20,468 nucleotides of DNA from a virus. A program made the position numbers and the translations under genes. The notes beneath the pieces were generated by a model. That model made no database searches. It was not told where the DNA came from and worked only from the letters and a program-made list of their open reading frames with translations. Of this stretch, positions 1 to 6,452 are shown in pieces. The stretch covers positions 1 to 20,468 of the IMG/VR virus record IMGVR_UViG_3300026077_000034. One strand, 5' to 3'. Every line of letters begins with the position of its first letter. The first letter of the stretch is position 1.

Positions 1-1195
1 CTGCACGACCTCTTTGAGAGCACATCAATAAATTATCATACTCTAAGTCATAGTTTAGAATAGATGCAACTTGGTCTCCAATATCATTTACCTCACATAA
101 TATGAATGCTTTATTATATGCTTTTCCTAAATCATCTATAATACTTGGAAACAGCATTGGTTTGATTTCGTTGTTTCGATATTTTGCTACTGCCTTGTAT
201 GGGAAGTTTGTAATATCAAAAACTATAAAAGCGGAATAATCATTACCCAATCCACGAGCAACGTCAACTGTAATTAAATAATTGTGATCTTTTATAGGAA
301 CTTCGTATACATCTAATCCAGCATTTTTTTGTATTGGATTCTCATATACTAAATTTTTTAATTTAGACGGATTAATAAGTGTATTAACAGATCCTAGAAA
401 CTCACACTCAAACTCAACTTTAAATTGTTGCTCAGATGTGTTTGCGATTGTTTGTTCTTTCCATTCTTCATCACGACCAGGTACTTCTGACCAGTGAACT
501 TCAGTTGGTACGTATTCATTTTTCTTTCTTTCAGCATCATGCCACATACGATAAAAATGATTCATACCTCTTGGGGTAGAAACAATTATTACCTTTGTCT
601 TTTGTCCTGATGAAATTGTTGGATAAACAGAAGCAAAGAAATCGTCAGCAATATGATTGGGGATAAAGGCAAACTCATCCAAGAATATAACGTTATAAGA
701 CCCACCCCTAACAGCAGAAGAAGAAGTTGAGTTAGCAGATATTTTTGACCCATTTTCAATTTCTAATGAACCTTTATTCCAAGATATTATACCTTGTTGC
801 ATCCATCTTGGCAAGTTTTCATATGCTAATTGTAATCTACCTAATAAATCACGGGCAGTAGAAGCTTTGTTTGCAAGTATAGCAATATTAACATTATCAT
901 TAAAAATCGCATAATGTAAGAGATATGATACAACCGTTGTCGATTTACCTGTCTGCCGAGGCATCTTACATATGTTGAAACGGTTCTCATGGAAATTTTG
1001 AATTAACTTTTTTTGAAAAGGATATTGCTTAAATGGAACTAAACCCTCATCAAGAGATACGATTTTGATATAATTATTTGCGAAATAAACTGGATCGTCT
1101 TTACACTTTAAGAACTCAATAATATTCTCTTGTGTAAATTCAATCTGAGTATTCGCCTTTTTTAAATTGGGATTACCAAGATAAACTTCACTCAT
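1..1195 (-). CDS. gp17: Terminase large subunit gp17 (3' end beyond window)
   Basis: This is the ATPase/nuclease motor that packages DNA into the prohead through the portal, and cuts concatemers. I translated it from ATG at 1195; it stays open for 398 codons to the left edge. The Walker A motif MPRQTGKST is at residues 78-86 and Walker B VIFLDEF at 169-175, with catalytic Glu174. The coupling motif STPRGMNHFY follows, as in T4 gp17. The RNase H-like nuclease begins at VDVARG (Asp311), with the second acidic residue in CEVND (Glu368). The 57-residue spacing equals that of T4 D401-E458. The third catalytic Asp would lie outside the window. Walker A is about 80 residues closer to the N-terminus than in T4, so the N-terminal region is shorter. 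It follows the 90-residue gene by 14 bases; no clear Shine-Dalgarno is seen. Confidence 0.97.
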   Translation of the reverse strand, partial: MSEVYLGNPNLKKANTQIEFTQENIIEFLKCKDDPVYFANNYIKIVSLDEGLVPFKQYPFQKKLIQNFHENRFNICKMPRQTGKSTTVVSYLLHYAIFNDNVNIAILANKASTARDLLGRLQLAYENLPRWMQQGIISWNKGSLEIENGSKISANSTSSSAVRGGSYNVIFLDEFAFIPNHIADDFFASVYPTISSGQKTKVIIVSTPRGMNHFYRMWHDAERKKNEYVPTEVHWSEVPGRDEEWKEQTIANTSEQQFKVEFECEFLGSVNTLINPSKLKNLVYENPIQKNAGLDVYEVPIKDHNYLITVDVARGLGNDYSAFIVFDITNFPYKAVAKYRNNEIKPMLFPSIIDDLGKAYNKAFILCEVNDIGDQVASILNYDLEYDNLLMCSQRGRA

Positions 1196-1209: not shown

Positions 1210-1482
1210 TTAACTTATTGTGTATCCTACTTTTGCACCTAAAACAGCAGCGTTCGCAGCAAAGATTGCTTCAGTTGATTTTTTCTCTACAACCTCTACA
1301 GAATTACCTGGCATTGTAAAAGTTCCGATTGTTGTAGATCCTCCAACCTCATCAATAACTGTTACCAATCTTGCAGTGCCACCATTATTAACAAGACGAA
1401 CTGCTGTAGCACTACCAAAGGTGGATGCACCTGCAGCATTTGTGCCACATGCAGCTTCAGTGCCTTTAATTAATGTGATCAT
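1210..1482 (-). CDS. Small beta-rich protein of unknown function (90 aa)
   Basis: The 90-residue protein is rich in Ala, Gly, Thr and Val, with no Trp and few charges. Alternating hydrophobic and small residues suggest a compact beta fold. No signal peptide or membrane segment is visible. From memory, similar small proteins occur near head genes of marine T4-like phages, so a minor virion or head-decoration role is possible, but this is weak inference. It lies 19 bases downstream of the 171-residue gene and 14 bases upstream of gp17. A degenerate late-promoter box (CATAAATA, 1510-1503) sits just upstream and could drive this gene and gp17. I do not recognise a named family. Confidence 0.75.
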   Translation of the reverse strand: MITLIKGTEAACGTNAAGASTFGSATAVRLVNNGGTARLVTVIDEVGGSTTIGTFTMPGNSVEVVEKKSTEAIFAANAAVLGAKVGYTIS

Positions 1483-1501: not shown

Positions 1502-2017
1502 CTATTTATGTTGATAATTATCTTGTATAACTTGACCTTTCTTTCTTGTTATTGGTTGAACTCCTGTTGCCACTGGTCTAGTATTTGATACTGGTACCAC
1601 AAATTCGTCACCTCTAACACCTTTTCTTAAATCTGATTTTTTAACATCAACTGCAATTATGCTTGGTTTATCTTTCCTTACCTTAGAAATGAGATTAGAA
1701 TAATATTCAGCTCTCTTAGGATTATTTGTTACATAGACATTACTTAATTCAGTTGAAAAATCTTTAGGATTAATCGTTTGAGTTGGTGTAAATCCTTTAG
1801 TCATTATTTTGTTAGCACTCTTGGTTGATGTTCCATGATACATTCTAACTGAATCCTTAAATGGTGTTTTTAATGTTTTAACTGGAGGACCAGCTCTCAT
1901 AGATCTACCTAAATTTTTAACAATTTTATTAATCCCTTTGAATGTCATCTTAGCAAGATTTGCTTTACTTTCATCAAGTTGTTTTATTTCACTAATGAAT
2001 TGATTATAAGTTTTCAT
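1502..2017 (-). CDS. Putative capsid-internal ADP-ribosyltransferase-like protein with T4 IP-type targeting peptide
   Basis: The ATG at 2017 is chosen over the GTG at 2023 because it overlaps the previous stop as TAATG, has GGAAG about 6 bases upstream, and gives the N-terminus MKTYNQFISE. T4 internal proteins such as IPIII start MKTYQEFIAE, and the prohead protease cuts after that Glu. I8-S9-E10 here matches in position; L14-D15-E16 is a second possible site. Residues 57-144 carry an ADP-ribosyltransferase-like order: R-M-Y-H-G-T-S (His61), K-G-F (74-76), V-Y-V-T (94-97), A-E-Y-Y-S (103-107), a hydrophobic strand I-I-A-V-D-V (120-125) and D-E-F-V-V-P (Glu138). This resembles the H-Y-E triad of PARP/Tpt1-type enzymes. 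The protein is basic. Inferred role: packaged in the head, injected with the DNA, and modifying a host target, as T4 Alt does. Gene call is certain; enzyme call is moderate. Confidence 0.6.
   Translation of the reverse strand: MKTYNQFISEIKQLDESKANLAKMTFKGINKIVKNLGRSMRAGPPVKTLKTPFKDSVRMYHGTSTKSANKIMTKGFTPTQTINPKDFSTELSNVYVTNNPKRAEYYSNLISKVRKDKPSIIAVDVKKSDLRKGVRGDEFVVPVSNTRPVATGVQPITRKKGQVIQDNYQHK
1503..1510 (-). promoter_or_regulatory. Possible degenerate late promoter CATAAATA
   Basis: One mismatch from TATAAATA, overlapping the end of the 171-aa gene. Its ~14-base predicted leader would place a start just ahead of the ATG at 1482, so it could give the 90-aa gene and gp17 their own late transcript. 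A single match in AT-rich DNA is weak evidence. Confidence 0.35.
1988..2017 (-). other. Capsid-targeting propeptide-like N-terminus of the 171-aa protein
   Basis: These codons encode MKTYNQFISE. Six of ten residues equal the T4 IPIII targeting peptide MKTYQEFIAE (M, K, T, Y, F, I plus the terminal E makes seven), and the I-x-E end fits the T4 gp21 cleavage rule (L/I)-x-E. Function here is inferred from that likeness. Confidence 0.65.
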
Positions 2018-3420
2018 TAGCACTTCCAGCGTCTTCTTGCCTTACATATTCTCTTGTTTGGTGTTTTCTTACAATCAATATTATGCATTTTTCTTTGTCC
2101 GTCAGAACGTGCACAGAATGACCTTCTTCTCTTTGATGCTTTAGATCCTTTCTTTACTTTACCAGTTACAGCAGTCTTTAAATTAGAACCAGGATTTTCT
2201 CTCTTGTAAGCATCTACTGCTTTTTGACTCATACCGTCAGTCTTATCTTTTCGATTTACTTTCTGCCAATCTTCACCTAAATCTGCTCTCCAATCATAAT
2301 GATCTTTAAGGTCTTTTTTAATTTTTTTAACTTTACTCTTATTAACTATTTTAGGAATATTAGTATTTTTATTAGTGATATCAGTTAAAATTTCATTCTT
2401 TATTTTACTCTGTGCCACTGGTGGAAAAACAGCATTTGGATTTATTTTCTTGTCTCCTATGACTTTTGGATCTCTAAATTTAGTTGGAACATCATCTGCA
2501 GATTTTACAATACGATCATATTTTAATTTATTTAATTTATTTTTAAAAGTATCTAACACTATCTTAGATCTATTCTGAATAAAAGTATTTACAGCTTTTG
2601 AAGATAATCTTGGAAATTTACCCATCGCTTTATCAGCACCTGTTGCTCTGATTATGGTTTTACCAAATGCATGTTTTAAAAATTGAAACTTCTCATCTAA
2701 CTCAATTAAATCATTCTTCCAATCTGAATAATTCTCTTTAAGTGGTTTTGCTTTAATTATATCAACAGTTTCTATTTCTGTAAACTTAATATCATCTGAG
2801 TTCCAATCTTGGATTACTAATTCACTTTCAATCGCAGTATCCTCTGTGTTTAATGCTACTTCTAATTCTTTTGCTTGAACTTCATGTGCATTAGCACTAC
2901 CTTTTAGTTTTTTAATTAATTTTTTAACATGTGGTACATCTTTTTTATCTAATACTTCAGGTAAATAATCATCCTTTACAAGTTCCTTTACCTTATTTGT
3001 AGCAATTGCATATTTAATATTTTTATCACCATAGCGATCTATCATTTCTTTATCACTGATAGCATCAGCAATTTCATCACGTTTTTTAATCTGCGACTTC
3101 GTTAAGGTTGCTTCATCTACATTAAGATCACTTCTCCAATCAGAAAACTCTTCTTTTCTTGTTTTTTTCTTTTTCTTTTTCACACAGTTTGGATATCTCT
3201 TACCAAACATTGTTTTCATACCTTTCTTTTCATAACCTGGCCAGCACTTTTCATTAAGAGACTCTTCATCTACTTTTTCAGGATTCATAGTCAAATCCTT
3301 ATAAGGAGGTTCCTTATATTTTTTCTCCTTTATTTTCTTCGTGTCTTGAAATCTTATGAAATCACCAAAGTTACCACGAATTAATTTAATCTCAGATAGA
3401 GTTTTTCTTGCGTATGTCAT
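2017..3420 (-). CDS. Lys-rich modular protein, likely virion/head-internal (467 aa)
   Basis: The protein is a basic mosaic without signal peptide or membrane segment. The N-terminus MTYARKTLSEIK has L-S-E-I-K at residues 8-12, the same positions as I-S-E-I-K in the next gene, suggesting a capsid-targeting peptide. Modules in order: KCWPGY...YPNCV (58-80), a two-Cys unit followed by a run of Lys; a KRDEIA...RYGD...YAIAT unit (about 110-140); a basic helical region (244-370); and a C-terminal W-Q-K-V-N-R-K-D-K-T-D-G unit (385-467) ending in a Cys/Arg-rich tail, which I recall as DUF6321-like. Short motifs FSDWR (92-96), YSDWK (231-235) and HYDWR (374-378) precede module starts, each followed by an x-x-E site. 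Start ATG lies 3 bases after the previous stop. Its stop overlaps the next ATG. Molecular function is unknown. Confidence 0.75.
   Translation of the reverse strand: MTYARKTLSEIKLIRGNFGDFIRFQDTKKIKEKKYKEPPYKDLTMNPEKVDEESLNEKCWPGYEKKGMKTMFGKRYPNCVKKKKKKTRKEEFSDWRSDLNVDEATLTKSQIKKRDEIADAISDKEMIDRYGDKNIKYAIATNKVKELVKDDYLPEVLDKKDVPHVKKLIKKLKGSANAHEVQAKELEVALNTEDTAIESELVIQDWNSDDIKFTEIETVDIIKAKPLKENYSDWKNDLIELDEKFQFLKHAFGKTIIRATGADKAMGKFPRLSSKAVNTFIQNRSKIVLDTFKNKLNKLKYDRIVKSADDVPTKFRDPKVIGDKKINPNAVFPPVAQSKIKNEILTDITNKNTNIPKIVNKSKVKKIKKDLKDHYDWRADLGEDWQKVNRKDKTDGMSQKAVDAYKRENPGSNLKTAVTGKVKKGSKASKRRRSFCARSDGQRKMHNIDCKKTPNKRICKARRRWKC
3391..3420 (-). other. Possible capsid-targeting propeptide of the 467-aa protein
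   Basis: These codons encode MTYARKTLSE, followed by I-K-L-I. L8-S9-E10 ends at the same residue number as the T4 IP cleavage site and as I8-S9-E10 in the neighbouring 171-aa protein. M-T-Y at the very start partly mirrors M-K-T-Y. The likeness is short, so this is a suggestion only. Confidence 0.4.
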
Positions 3421-3423
3421 AGT

Positions 3424-6024
3424 TTAGAAGGATTGTGGAATTTTATCAACAGTTGGTTTTGGTGGTGTAGGAGAATTGGACTGTACTTTTTTAGCAGCGA
3501 TTCTTGCTCTCGCCATTGCCTGTGCTCTTTCCCTACCAGATAACTGTGGATTATCCTTACGATATTGATCTAGATTACCACTTTTCTTTGCTGCCTGAAA
3601 CTCCTGATTTTTTTGTTTTAGTTGATCAACTCTATCATCACCAAGTCTTTCTCTGTTTGCCCTTTCAATTGAACCCATTTTTTGCTGTTGTTGCCCACTA
3701 TTACTTGATTGATTTTGTTGCTGTTGTTGTCCACTACTAGTGGTTGTTTTACCAGCCATATTTTGATTGCTTTGCGAAATTCTACCTTGTATTGGTTTTG
3801 GTTTTAATGCACTACCTACTTTTTGTGCTGCACTGCTAACTGCACTACCTACTTTTTGTGCTGCACTGCCAACTGCACTACCTGCTTTTTTGAGCATTCC
3901 TAAGAGTTGTTCATCCAACTCATCATTTTCAATTATTGAATCTCTCCAACTGTAATGATCATTTATATTCTTATCCTTTTTTGTAGCAGGTTTTGGTTTT
4001 GGTTTTACTGTTGTTTTACCATCCTCAACACCTTGATAGTAAGAATTTATCCGTTTTTGCATCTCTAGTTCAGATCTTTGATCCTCTAGTTCAGATTCAA
4101 GTTCTTTGATTTTTCCTTGATTTACAGCATTTTGAATTTCAGCACCAACGATTCCTCCAGTAGTTAGGGCACCAGCATTTCTTTTAAATGCATCCCCAAA
4201 TCTACCTGCAAAGTTTCTACTTCCACCAGATCCACCAGAACCACTACCAATTTTGGTAAATGAACCTGTTTTTGTCGGTGTAAAGTCTTTAACTTTTGCT
4301 GGTAATTTTTTACTAATTGTTGGTAAACTACCACTTCCTACAGTAACTTTTCTTATATTACCTCCTTTTATTTTTGGAACTATGTTTTTTACTGCTTTGA
4401 GGCCCATTTGAACTAATTTAGACTTTCCTTCATCCAACATATCTTCAGGAACATATCCTTCTGATTTATTACCCCAGTTTGCAGCACCTACTTTACGACA
4501 CTTAACTAATGCACCTGATGCATACGCACTTGGCCAAACTGAGTATCTTGACTTAACTTTATAGTAACAAGCATCTTTCTTTCCACTTCCTTTACCTTTT
4601 CTATCTTTAACTTCGTTTAATTCTTCTTCGTGTTCGTGTGGAATCGTATTACCATCAGCATCTTTTTTATGATGTTCTTGTATATCTTCTAATAATGCGT
4701 CTCCAACATTTACATTATTCTCTGCAAACCAACCACGATTAACTTCAACTGCATATCTTATCTCACTGTCAGGATAAACAGGAATCGGACTCATCGGATC
4801 TAATTCTTTGATACTATCAATTGTACCATCTTCTTTTATAAAAGCAATGTCAAGAGGGATGAAAGTATTTTTCATATGGAATGTCCAATAATCATTACTT
4901 TCAAATATGAATAACATACCTCTATCTTGTTCCAAACTCTCACGGAACATCAGACCACATTTAAATTCTCCACCACTTTGTGGAACTTCAAGTACAAGAG
5001 GTAATGAAGTAAATTCAGTTGATTCCTTTTTCATTTTCTTTTTCTTTTTCCTTTTCTTTTTAGGTTTGTCAGTTGAGACATATGTTGGTTTTGCAGCACC
5101 AGTTTTTTCCTGTTGACCAGGATCTGCTGCTTTCTTTCTCCTTGCTGCAGATCTTCTTTCTGCAGGAGTCATTCTTTCATATTTTGCACGGGATACACAC
5201 TTGGGAACTCCCTCACCAGGTTCATCGCTTGCACAAGTTCCACCTGTAAGAACGTTAACCCATCCACCTTTTCCGTCCTTGGATTTAGAACCCTTGAACC
5301 ACTTGTGGAGTGAACCCTCCTTTACCTCTTCTTTGTCAGTCATATAATCTGCTGCAGTATCAAGATAATCTGCTGCTTTTGTTATTTTAGACTGAACCCA
5401 TGCTTTAACCTCACCTTCACCGTTATCAACTTTTTTCTTGATTCTTTTCGCAGCGACCATGATATTGTCAGTCTGACGACGAATCATTTCATATTCGTGA
5501 TCACCTTTCTTTTCTTCATTCATCGCTTTTGTTTTCTTTTTCATAGAGTTGATATATTTGCGGAAGATTGCAGCTTCAGCAGTTTTACCCATCACTCTCG
5601 CTCTTTGCTCCATAGCAATCGCTGCTTGGATTTTATGAGCATGAGATCTACTTGATTTCCTAATTTTTGCCACACTCGCTTTCGCAGTAGCGACATCCTT
5701 AAAACCAAGTCCATGAATAGTTCCTTTAGGATCTTCATCAGTGTATAAATCAGAGTGTTTTTTAGACTTTGCAGGTTGCCCTTTTTTACGGGGTATACGA
5801 GGATTAGATTCTTCTTCTATTCCTTTCTTTTTTTTACCATCACAATGTGCCTTCTGACTAAAACCTTTTGGGTTATCACAATCAATTGACCTTTTATACT
5901 TTGCTGACCACCCTTCCTTCACCAAGAAACCGTCCTCACGGACAGTATATCCTTCAGGAATAGGTTTACACTTCTTATCAGTGTTACAATAGTATTGTCC
6001 CTTTTTACAGGAAGTCTTTGCCAT
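3424..6024 (-). CDS. Large modular Lys/Cys-rich protein with embedded DUF192 domain (866 aa)
   Basis: This is a mosaic protein between the two terminase subunits. Modules in order: Cys-rich C-K-K-G-Q-Y-Y-C (6-13) and S-I-D-C...K-A-H-C (46-61); a K-K-H-S-D-L-Y-T-D-E-D-P-K-G-T-I-H-G-L unit (88-157); a helical unit with K-A-W-V-Q-S-K-I-T-K-A-A-D-Y-L (207-221); a G-S-K-S-K-D-G-K-G-G-W-V unit (245-256, recalled as DUF5872-like) ending in poly-Lys (322-333); a DUF192 domain (about 341-446) with G-L-M-F-R-E-S-L, R-G-M-L-F-I-F and M-K-N-T-F-I-P-L-D-I; a W-P-S-A-Y-A-S-G-A Cys unit (485-510); a Gly-rich basic region; a coiled coil (636-665); an SWRD motif (692-695); an 11-residue Ala/Gly/Ser repeat (713-740); a Gln-rich tract (766-782); and a helical basic C-terminus. 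No catalytic function is evident. Probably a virion, perhaps head-internal, protein that may be cut by the prohead protease. Confidence 0.75.
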   Translation of the reverse strand: MAKTSCKKGQYYCNTDKKCKPIPEGYTVREDGFLVKEGWSAKYKRSIDCDNPKGFSQKAHCDGKKKKGIEEESNPRIPRKKGQPAKSKKHSDLYTDEDPKGTIHGLGFKDVATAKASVAKIRKSSRSHAHKIQAAIAMEQRARVMGKTAEAAIFRKYINSMKKKTKAMNEEKKGDHEYEMIRRQTDNIMVAAKRIKKKVDNGEGEVKAWVQSKITKAADYLDTAADYMTDKEEVKEGSLHKWFKGSKSKDGKGGWVNVLTGGTCASDEPGEGVPKCVSRAKYERMTPAERRSAARRKKAADPGQQEKTGAAKPTYVSTDKPKKKRKKKKKMKKESTEFTSLPLVLEVPQSGGEFKCGLMFRESLEQDRGMLFIFESNDYWTFHMKNTFIPLDIAFIKEDGTIDSIKELDPMSPIPVYPDSEIRYAVEVNRGWFAENNVNVGDALLEDIQEHHKKDADGNTIPHEHEEELNEVKDRKGKGSGKKDACYYKVKSRYSVWPSAYASGALVKCRKVGAANWGNKSEGYVPEDMLDEGKSKLVQMGLKAVKNIVPKIKGGNIRKVTVGSGSLPTISKKLPAKVKDFTPTKTGSFTKIGSGSGGSGGSRNFAGRFGDAFKRNAGALTTGGIVGAEIQNAVNQGKIKELESELEDQRSELEMQKRINSYYQGVEDGKTTVKPKPKPATKKDKNINDHYSWRDSIIENDELDEQLLGMLKKAGSAVGSAAQKVGSAVSSAAQKVGSALKPKPIQGRISQSNQNMAGKTTTSSGQQQQQNQSSNSGQQQQKMGSIERANRERLGDDRVDQLKQKNQEFQAAKKSGNLDQYRKDNPQLSGRERAQAMARARIAAKKVQSNSPTPPKPTVDKIPQSF
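3809..3886 (-). repeat. 33-bp tandem repeat encoding an 11-residue Ala-rich helix repeat
   Basis: Copies begin at 3809, 3842 and 3875 (the last partial), each starting GCACTACCT on the plus strand. Read on the minus strand they encode K-[AV]-G-S-A-V-x-S-A-A-Q units. An 11-residue period fits an extended amphipathic helix, as in LEA-type proteins. Near-identity at DNA level between copies suggests recent duplication. Confidence 0.8.
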
Positions 6025-6032
6025 TATACAGA

Positions 6033-6452
6033 CTATTCAGAGCTATTATTATTTAGCAATCCGTCTTTTAACATTTTTGAAAGTTCACTTGTTGAACCAA
6101 CAAAGAGTGCGTTGTTCGTAACAGTATTTTGAGTTTTAGGATTATCTGCTTCTATATCTTTTACTTTTTTATGTAAATCTGCTAATTTATCTGTAGTATC
6201 TGCAACTGATTTAATAAGTTGTCCAGCAACTTCATATGCTCTTGGACTTGCAGTTTCTCCTGCAACCTCCATTATACCATTAATTGCTTCTTGTCCTTTT
6301 TCAATTAGTGAATATAAATTACCTCTTGTATAATCGTAGTCTTTTTTAACTTCATCTACTTTGGTTACTTCATCTGCTTTTACAATAGCATCAACCTCAA
6401 CACTACCATCAGTGTTGAAAGTATCATTTAATGAATCGTAACCCTTTGCCAT
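6033..6452 (-). CDS. gp16: Terminase small subunit gp16
   Basis: gp16 forms the ring that recognises viral DNA and stimulates the gp17 packaging ATPase. The 139-residue product is close to the 164 of T4. It keeps the T4 core: an A-S-P-R-A-Y-E-V segment equivalent to T4 D-S-P-R-H-M-E-V, followed by the helical D-K-L-A-D-L-H-K-K-V-K-D-I (T4 I-L-K-L-H-K-D-M-K-D-I), and the C-terminal F-V-G-S-T-S-E-L (T4 F-M-G-S-P-T-E-L). The N-terminal region is acidic and differs. The ATG overlaps the gp15 stop as TAATG and has GGGGAG about 10 bases upstream. Unlike T4, gp17 does not follow directly: about 4.8 kb of other genes intervene. Confidence 0.92.
   Translation of the reverse strand: MAKGYDSLNDTFNTDGSVEVDAIVKADEVTKVDEVKKDYDYTRGNLYSLIEKGQEAINGIMEVAGETASPRAYEVAGQLIKSVADTTDKLADLHKKVKDIEADNPKTQNTVTNNALFVGSTSELSKMLKDGLLNNNSSE

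Follow-up and report, generated by a model that had tools for sequence, protein, structure and literature searches.

A putative head-delivered ADP-ribosyltransferase-fold protein with a T4 internal-protein-type targeting peptide in a marine T4-type cyanophage

The tagged gene and its locus

The window analysed, 20,468 bases in length, is the entire virus record IMGVR_UViG_3300026077_000034. Its gene set comprises a 2462-amino acid (aa) protein, gp13, gp14, gp15, gp16, an 866-aa protein, a 467-aa protein, the gene under study, a 90-aa protein and the start of gp17, and its structural genes are all on the minus strand. The gene under study (P0001; 1502..2017, minus strand) is located between the terminase genes gp16 and gp17 and encodes a protein of 171 aa with a predicted ADP-ribosyltransferase (ART) domain, preceded by a short N-terminal peptide of the T4 internal-protein type, here referred to as the tag. 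The assignment was based on the open reading frame (ORF), Pfam, PHROG, an AlphaFold2 model and Foldseek. An earlier note, made from the sequence alone, had proposed that the phage packages a small ART with such a peptide to act on the host at the moment of infection. This overall interpretation was supported and withstood the in-silico tests put to it. The preferred reading, in which the gene product is a small effector with an ART fold that is carried to the host by the phage head, is given a probability of roughly two in three.

The gp15 of the window was 74% identical to that of Prochlorococcus phage P-SSM2, and the source phage is a P-SSM2-like T4-type cyanophage from the ocean with a Prochlorococcus-type host. 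P-SSM2 has a comparable order of gp16, two large proteins, the 90-aa gene and gp17; no gene at that place is tagged. The upstream neighbour of the tagged gene is the 467-aa gene (2017..3420, minus strand; ORF and Pfam), which has a C-terminal DUF6321 and ends RRRWKC. Downstream lies the 90-aa gene (1210..1482, minus strand; phrog_19805 by PHROG), followed by the partial gene for the terminase large subunit gp17 (1..1195, minus strand), which runs off the contig end. The terminase small subunit gp16 was found at 6033..6452 on the minus strand (Pfam and PHROG).

The tagged ORF is real. It has 171 codons (2017-1502, minus strand) and its translation opens MKTYNQFISEIKQLDESK. The ATG at 2017 shares its A with the TAA stop codon of the 467-aa gene and was for this reason favoured over the GTG at 2023 given by the ORF lister; translation and stop/start overlap thus bore out the start with MKTYNQFISE read in the earlier note. 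The motifs picked out there were found at the same positions in the translation, namely M59-Y-H61-G-T-S, V94-Y95-V-T, A103-E-Y-Y106-S and D137-E138-F-V-V-P. According to the family alignment, the putative H-Y-E triad is formed by His61 in YHGT (codon 1835..1837), Tyr95 in VYVT (1733..1735) and Glu138 in DEFVVP (1604..1606), all on the minus strand, with Glu138 opening a predicted strand in the model. The resemblance is greater than expected by chance: the joint pattern HG[TQ]..G[FLI]..V[YH]x[TS] did not occur in any of 100,000 shuffled versions of the tagged protein.

The N-terminal targeting peptide

Residues 1-10, MKTYNQFISE (1988..2017, minus strand), were read as a capsid-targeting peptide of the T4 internal-protein type, with Tyr4 and Phe7 at the targeting positions and a predicted cut by the prohead protease gp21 after Glu10 (I8-S9-E10). 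A possible second prohead-protease site (L14-D15-E16), with cleavage after Glu16, is contained in residues 11-16, IKQLDE (1970..1987, minus strand). The first ten residues of T4 IPIII are enough for its packaging, positions 4 and 7 governing targeting and positions 8 and 10 cleavage, and the cleavage motif of gp21 is L/I-x-E (PMC9026906). The tag shares with T4 MKTYQEFIAE the aromatic residues 4 and 7 and the I-x-E site. The earlier note had given MKTYQEFIAE as the start of the T4 internal proteins, which holds for IPII and IPIII (both MKTYQEFIAEA) but not for IPI, which opens MKTFKEFT. PHROG 8765, 'internal virion protein', matched residues 1-30 of the tagged protein with E=7e-4. This 20-kb contig has no gp21 gene; one was found in the same-slot contigs L002, L003, L067, L077 and L120. 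Packaging of the tagged protein in the phage head is strongly expected and, were it packaged, its injection would be expected with similar confidence.

Of about 107 annotated T4 coding sequences that were checked, four are tagged, namely 61.1 and those of the three internal proteins. Gene 61.1 (L097 18966-19130) opens MKTFKEFIKED, a targeting-type N-terminus, and from this sequence its product may be an additional T4 head protein.

The closest approach to experimental support for the tag in cyanophages is offered by the core protein T4-GC190, which was detected in S-SM1 virions (PMC3037559). Its N-termini, MKKFSAFLNEA in S-SM1 and VKSFGQFLTEA in S-SSM7, both have aromatic residues at positions 4 and 7 and an L-x-E site. 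T4-GC190, a cytidylyltransferase-like protein, resembles the tagged ART in its capsid-targeting-like N-terminus, but has a different enzyme fold and is encoded by a cyanophage core gene located outside the slot described below.

The gp16-gp17 cargo slot

The interval bounded by the DUF6321 gene on one side and by the 90-aa gene and then gp17 on the other was defined as the slot, and 19 contigs were found to be so bounded. All 24 genes inside the slot were tagged, compared to 15 of 665 elsewhere, counts that are not fully independent because several contigs are near-duplicates. Ten of these 15 encode a long protein that, in other contigs, immediately precedes the 90-aa gene. No tagged gene was present at the slot position in L014, P-SSM2 (L091) and the single-cell records L093 and L094, where the gene order is different. 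After removal of the first 20 residues, 55 tagged proteins fell into 17 blastp clusters, the largest of which is inflated by fusions such as L028. The slot proteins have a common tag and largely unrelated bodies. The reading of the tag as internal-protein-type is strengthened by this slot-wide occurrence on unrelated proteins and by tagged T4-GC190, a family reported from virions. Judged from the sequences, the tagged ART gene occupies a cargo slot whose cassettes are exchangeable, a point absent from the earlier note.

In the 39 tagged cyanophage genes, position 4 was F or Y without exception and position 7 was F in 37 and L in two. Some slot cassettes have conserved DNA flanks, and overlap between the start ATG and the stop codon of the preceding gene is frequent. 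Both features would also be expected if the peptide were a recombination seam or a translation-coupling element of exchanged cassettes and not a head-targeting signal. This explanation is very unlikely. The tag codons vary synonymously across the 39 genes, including residues 3-7, and the constraint on the tag therefore acts at the protein level. Furthermore, F and Y alternate at position 4, the constraint coincides with the T4 targeting positions, and the same tag is found in T4 internal proteins and outside the slot.

In two contigs (L028 873-1751 and L030 1427-2308), two cassettes are fused in a single ORF, and another tag-like stretch, YKTFKQFTEQ, lies in the middle of the protein. Tagged genes were also observed directly upstream of gp16 (L010 5223-5813 and L024 3185-3697), and this interval is possibly a second cargo slot.

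Fold and family of the ART body

The ART domain was predicted at residues 54-148 (1574..1858, minus strand; strand, helix, strand, helix, strands) from the AlphaFold2 model and Foldseek. The model was confident for these residues only, with a core pLDDT (predicted local distance difference test) of about 80; residues 1-54 consist of the tag and a low-confidence helix. Foldseek against the PDB returned Tpt1/KptA structures at ranks 1-18 (E from 2.7e-3, probability up to 1.00), followed mostly by PARP10/14/15/16, pertussis S1 and exotoxin A. Matches in a viral library were to proteins annotated as ARTs or likely to be so, the best being phage G Gp53 (5.7e-5) and the others including a mycobacteriophage 'ADP-ribosyltransferase', a PaBG 'RNA 2'-phosphotransferase' and DarT. 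The ART fold implied by the earlier note was recovered and is very probable, the model and its PDB matches being of moderate confidence; going beyond that note, the closest solved folds to the model are those of Tpt1/KptA.

Two relatives were retrieved via the neighbouring gene, one 63% identical over the full length (L057) and one about one third identical (34%) with its 5' end missing (L017). His61, Tyr95, Tyr106 and Glu138 were invariant in all three family members found (n=3). The triad His61, Tyr95 and Glu138 hence passed the conservation check suggested earlier, even in a member with just 34% identity, and catalytic activity is probable. Single-sequence scans for relatives of the tagged ART found none, and an alignment-based scan found nothing beyond the two already obtained. 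tblastn in annotated phages gave weak matches only, the best to Bacillus phage G gp53 (E=0.007), and a phmmer comparison of this one sequence with the PDB was uninformative.

The closeness to Tpt1/KptA raises the alternative of a Tpt1/KptA-type RNA 2'-phosphotransferase whose role after injection would be the repair or alteration of RNA ends, such as those of host tRNA cut by defence nucleases, and not the modification of proteins. Like Tpt1/KptA, the tagged protein has a YHGT motif, and besides the 18 best PDB folds its best Pfam match was PTS_2-RNA (Tpt1/KptA; E=3.2e-5), which also matched a homologue (4.8e-4, with PARP at 0.021). A related tagged family, family C below, matched phrog_5470 'RNA 2'-phosphotransferase' at 7e-4. 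However, the Pfam score of 24.5 bits is below the gathering cut-off of 26, and the match spans only positions 73-158 of the 177-position profile. As it begins at position 73, the N-terminal RNA-binding lobe is missing. VYVT replaces the HVHL-type motif of Tpt1, so that Tyr95 stands where the Tpt1 profile has another residue, as does Glu138, which is at the H-Y-E position. Membership of Tpt1/KptA was rejected on the sub-cut-off score and the missing lobe, and the RNA-repair alternative is considered improbable.

Two further assignments were tried. Membership of the T4 Alt/ModA/ModB family was rejected, as blastp against T4 ModA, the only one of the three compared, showed no similarity. The protein is also unlike the polyvalent proteins, having one ART domain in 171 aa and not several effector domains.

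Tagged genes beyond the slot

In a scan of IMG/VR for MKT[FY]x[QE]FIxE, almost every one of the 80 loci among the matches listed carried tagged genes; because the scan selected for the tag, it shows the breadth of the tag and not its frequency. Tagged genes between gp16 or DUF6321 and gp17 were seen in L101, L121, L129, L138, L148 and L154. In L154 (1085-1591), from a diverged phage, the DUF6321-gp17 interval contains a tagged ART-like gene (YHGT...GVYSTPS...GSEV). Family C, about 30 tagged proteins found from L109, aligned with the ART body by hhalign after removal of the tag (97.6%, E 4.7e-12). A slot family with HGQS replacing HGTS was linked to the tagged ART at 94.4% (E 9.3e-8), a kinship drawn from profile comparison, as its model was too poor for a claim on the fold. 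Family B was weakly linked (hhalign 13.8%). On the evidence of L154, family C and the HGQS family, ART-type bodies were joined to the tag repeatedly.

On balance, environmental T4-like phages probably have a single portable code for delivery in the head, MK(T/S)(F/Y)xxF, optionally followed by I/L-x-E, the marine gp16-gp17 interval being a dedicated exchange site for tagged effectors. These effectors would include ARTs in the interval and, elsewhere in the genome, GNAT-like proteins, nucleotidyltransferases and a possible phosphatase.

Several other tagged proteins were observed. One adjoining a tagged ART-like gene (L231 4414-4797) has a GNAT-like segment by eye. Others (L119 519-1097, L135 321-2098 and L139 8259-9539) resemble a phosphatase, by eye, and cytidylyltransferases (Pfam CTP_transf_like). 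Five tagged genes are present within 3.5 kb of one contig (L149 5912-9422). Among cultured cyanophages, Sf-CH8 has a tagged cassette (SfCH8_73).

Proposed mechanism and comparison with known systems

Late in infection, the tag would dock the protein on the prohead scaffold core via aromatic residues 4 and 7, and gp21 would cleave after Glu10 or Glu16. The mature protein would remain with the DNA and be ejected into the next host cell, where, using NAD+, it could ADP-ribosylate a host component or a defence factor, either a protein or a nucleic acid, before phage gene expression. The overlapping stop and start codons suggest that translation is coupled to the upstream structural gene.

A number of observations weigh against this delivered ART-fold effector. 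The I/L-x-E cut site is present in only 20 of the 39 tags, so that processing by gp21 is not universal. The AlphaFold2 model rests on a shallow alignment, with the N-terminal 50 and last 20 residues poorly predicted, and the Foldseek E-values are modest, with no PDB match below 1e-3. The ART family is small, with three members found, and a scan of GTDB genomes found no relatives. Families B, C and probably HGQS do not clearly keep the catalytic Glu, family C having none at the Glu138 position, and some tagged ART-fold proteins may therefore not be enzymes. We know of no virion proteomics for the source phage or for any near relative that has the gene.

The loss of Glu in these related families also fits a packaged, non-catalytic ART-fold protein that would inhibit a host defence enzyme stoichiometrically. 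T4 internal proteins were found by their signal sequence, and all three of them, IPI, IPII and IPIII, inhibit GmrSD restriction enzymes (PMC12373910). Against this, the family of the tagged gene itself retains His, Tyr and Glu across 34% identity, and a purely inhibitory role is improbable.

As with the T4 internal proteins, the cargo is small and hypervariable with the tag as the sole common part. It differs in having an ART fold, in coming from a marine cyanophage and in its location between gp16 and gp17, where the T4 genes are beside gene e or 57B. With T4 Alt, paralogous to ModA and ModB, the tagged ART would share carriage in the head and injection at infection. It is far smaller, appears to belong to a different ART clade, the blastp comparison being with ModA and not Alt itself, and has an internal-protein-type tag where Alt has propeptides of its own. 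ART genes near terminase or portal genes were predicted by Iyer et al. in 2017 and 2022 to be packaged and injected (PMC5512222, PMC9503650). Delivery of those ARTs and polyvalent effectors was deduced from gene neighbourhood or MuF/portal fusion, whereas in the present case the cargo is marked by a recognisable, short targeting peptide. In a limited literature search, 'capsid targeting' was joined with 'cyanophage' in nothing but a T4 review, and three elements appear to be new, namely the tag in cyanophages, the slot for its cargo and a tagged ART of a non-Alt kind.

To our knowledge, almost nothing is known of which proteins cyanophages inject in the first seconds of infection. Should the tag function as it does in T4, this question could be reduced to a search of sequences and a straightforward mass-spectrometry test of virions, and reading the N-terminal code would yield a census of the proteins injected by these phages. 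The findings suggest head-delivered ADP-ribosylation on an ART scaffold and by a delivery route other than those of T4 Alt. Phages of Prochlorococcus and Synechococcus are among the most abundant in the ocean, and the effectors would for this reason concern host take-over and defence at large scale.

Other features of the window

A match to the ATAAATA late promoter at 1503-1509 was not used, since the motif is no more frequent in the window than expected by chance, and a sigma-70 promoter scan of the window gave fewer sites than in shuffles. The 866-aa protein contains a DUF192 domain (4693-4992, E=6e-26). A repeated [YH]xxW[RK]xx[LI]xE-like motif was observed in the 467-aa and 866-aa proteins (2017-6024), where [LI]xE sites exceed those of shuffles (8 vs 3.7 and 12 vs 5.3). 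This excess is consistent with gp21 processing, and the two proteins may be cleaved by the prohead protease into several head proteins, a suggestion from sequence that is separate from the main claim. The 90-aa family (phrog_19805) occurs at two sites (window 1210-1482; L015, L018 and L096), one ahead of gp17 and the other ahead of gp21, at the gp67/gp68 position.
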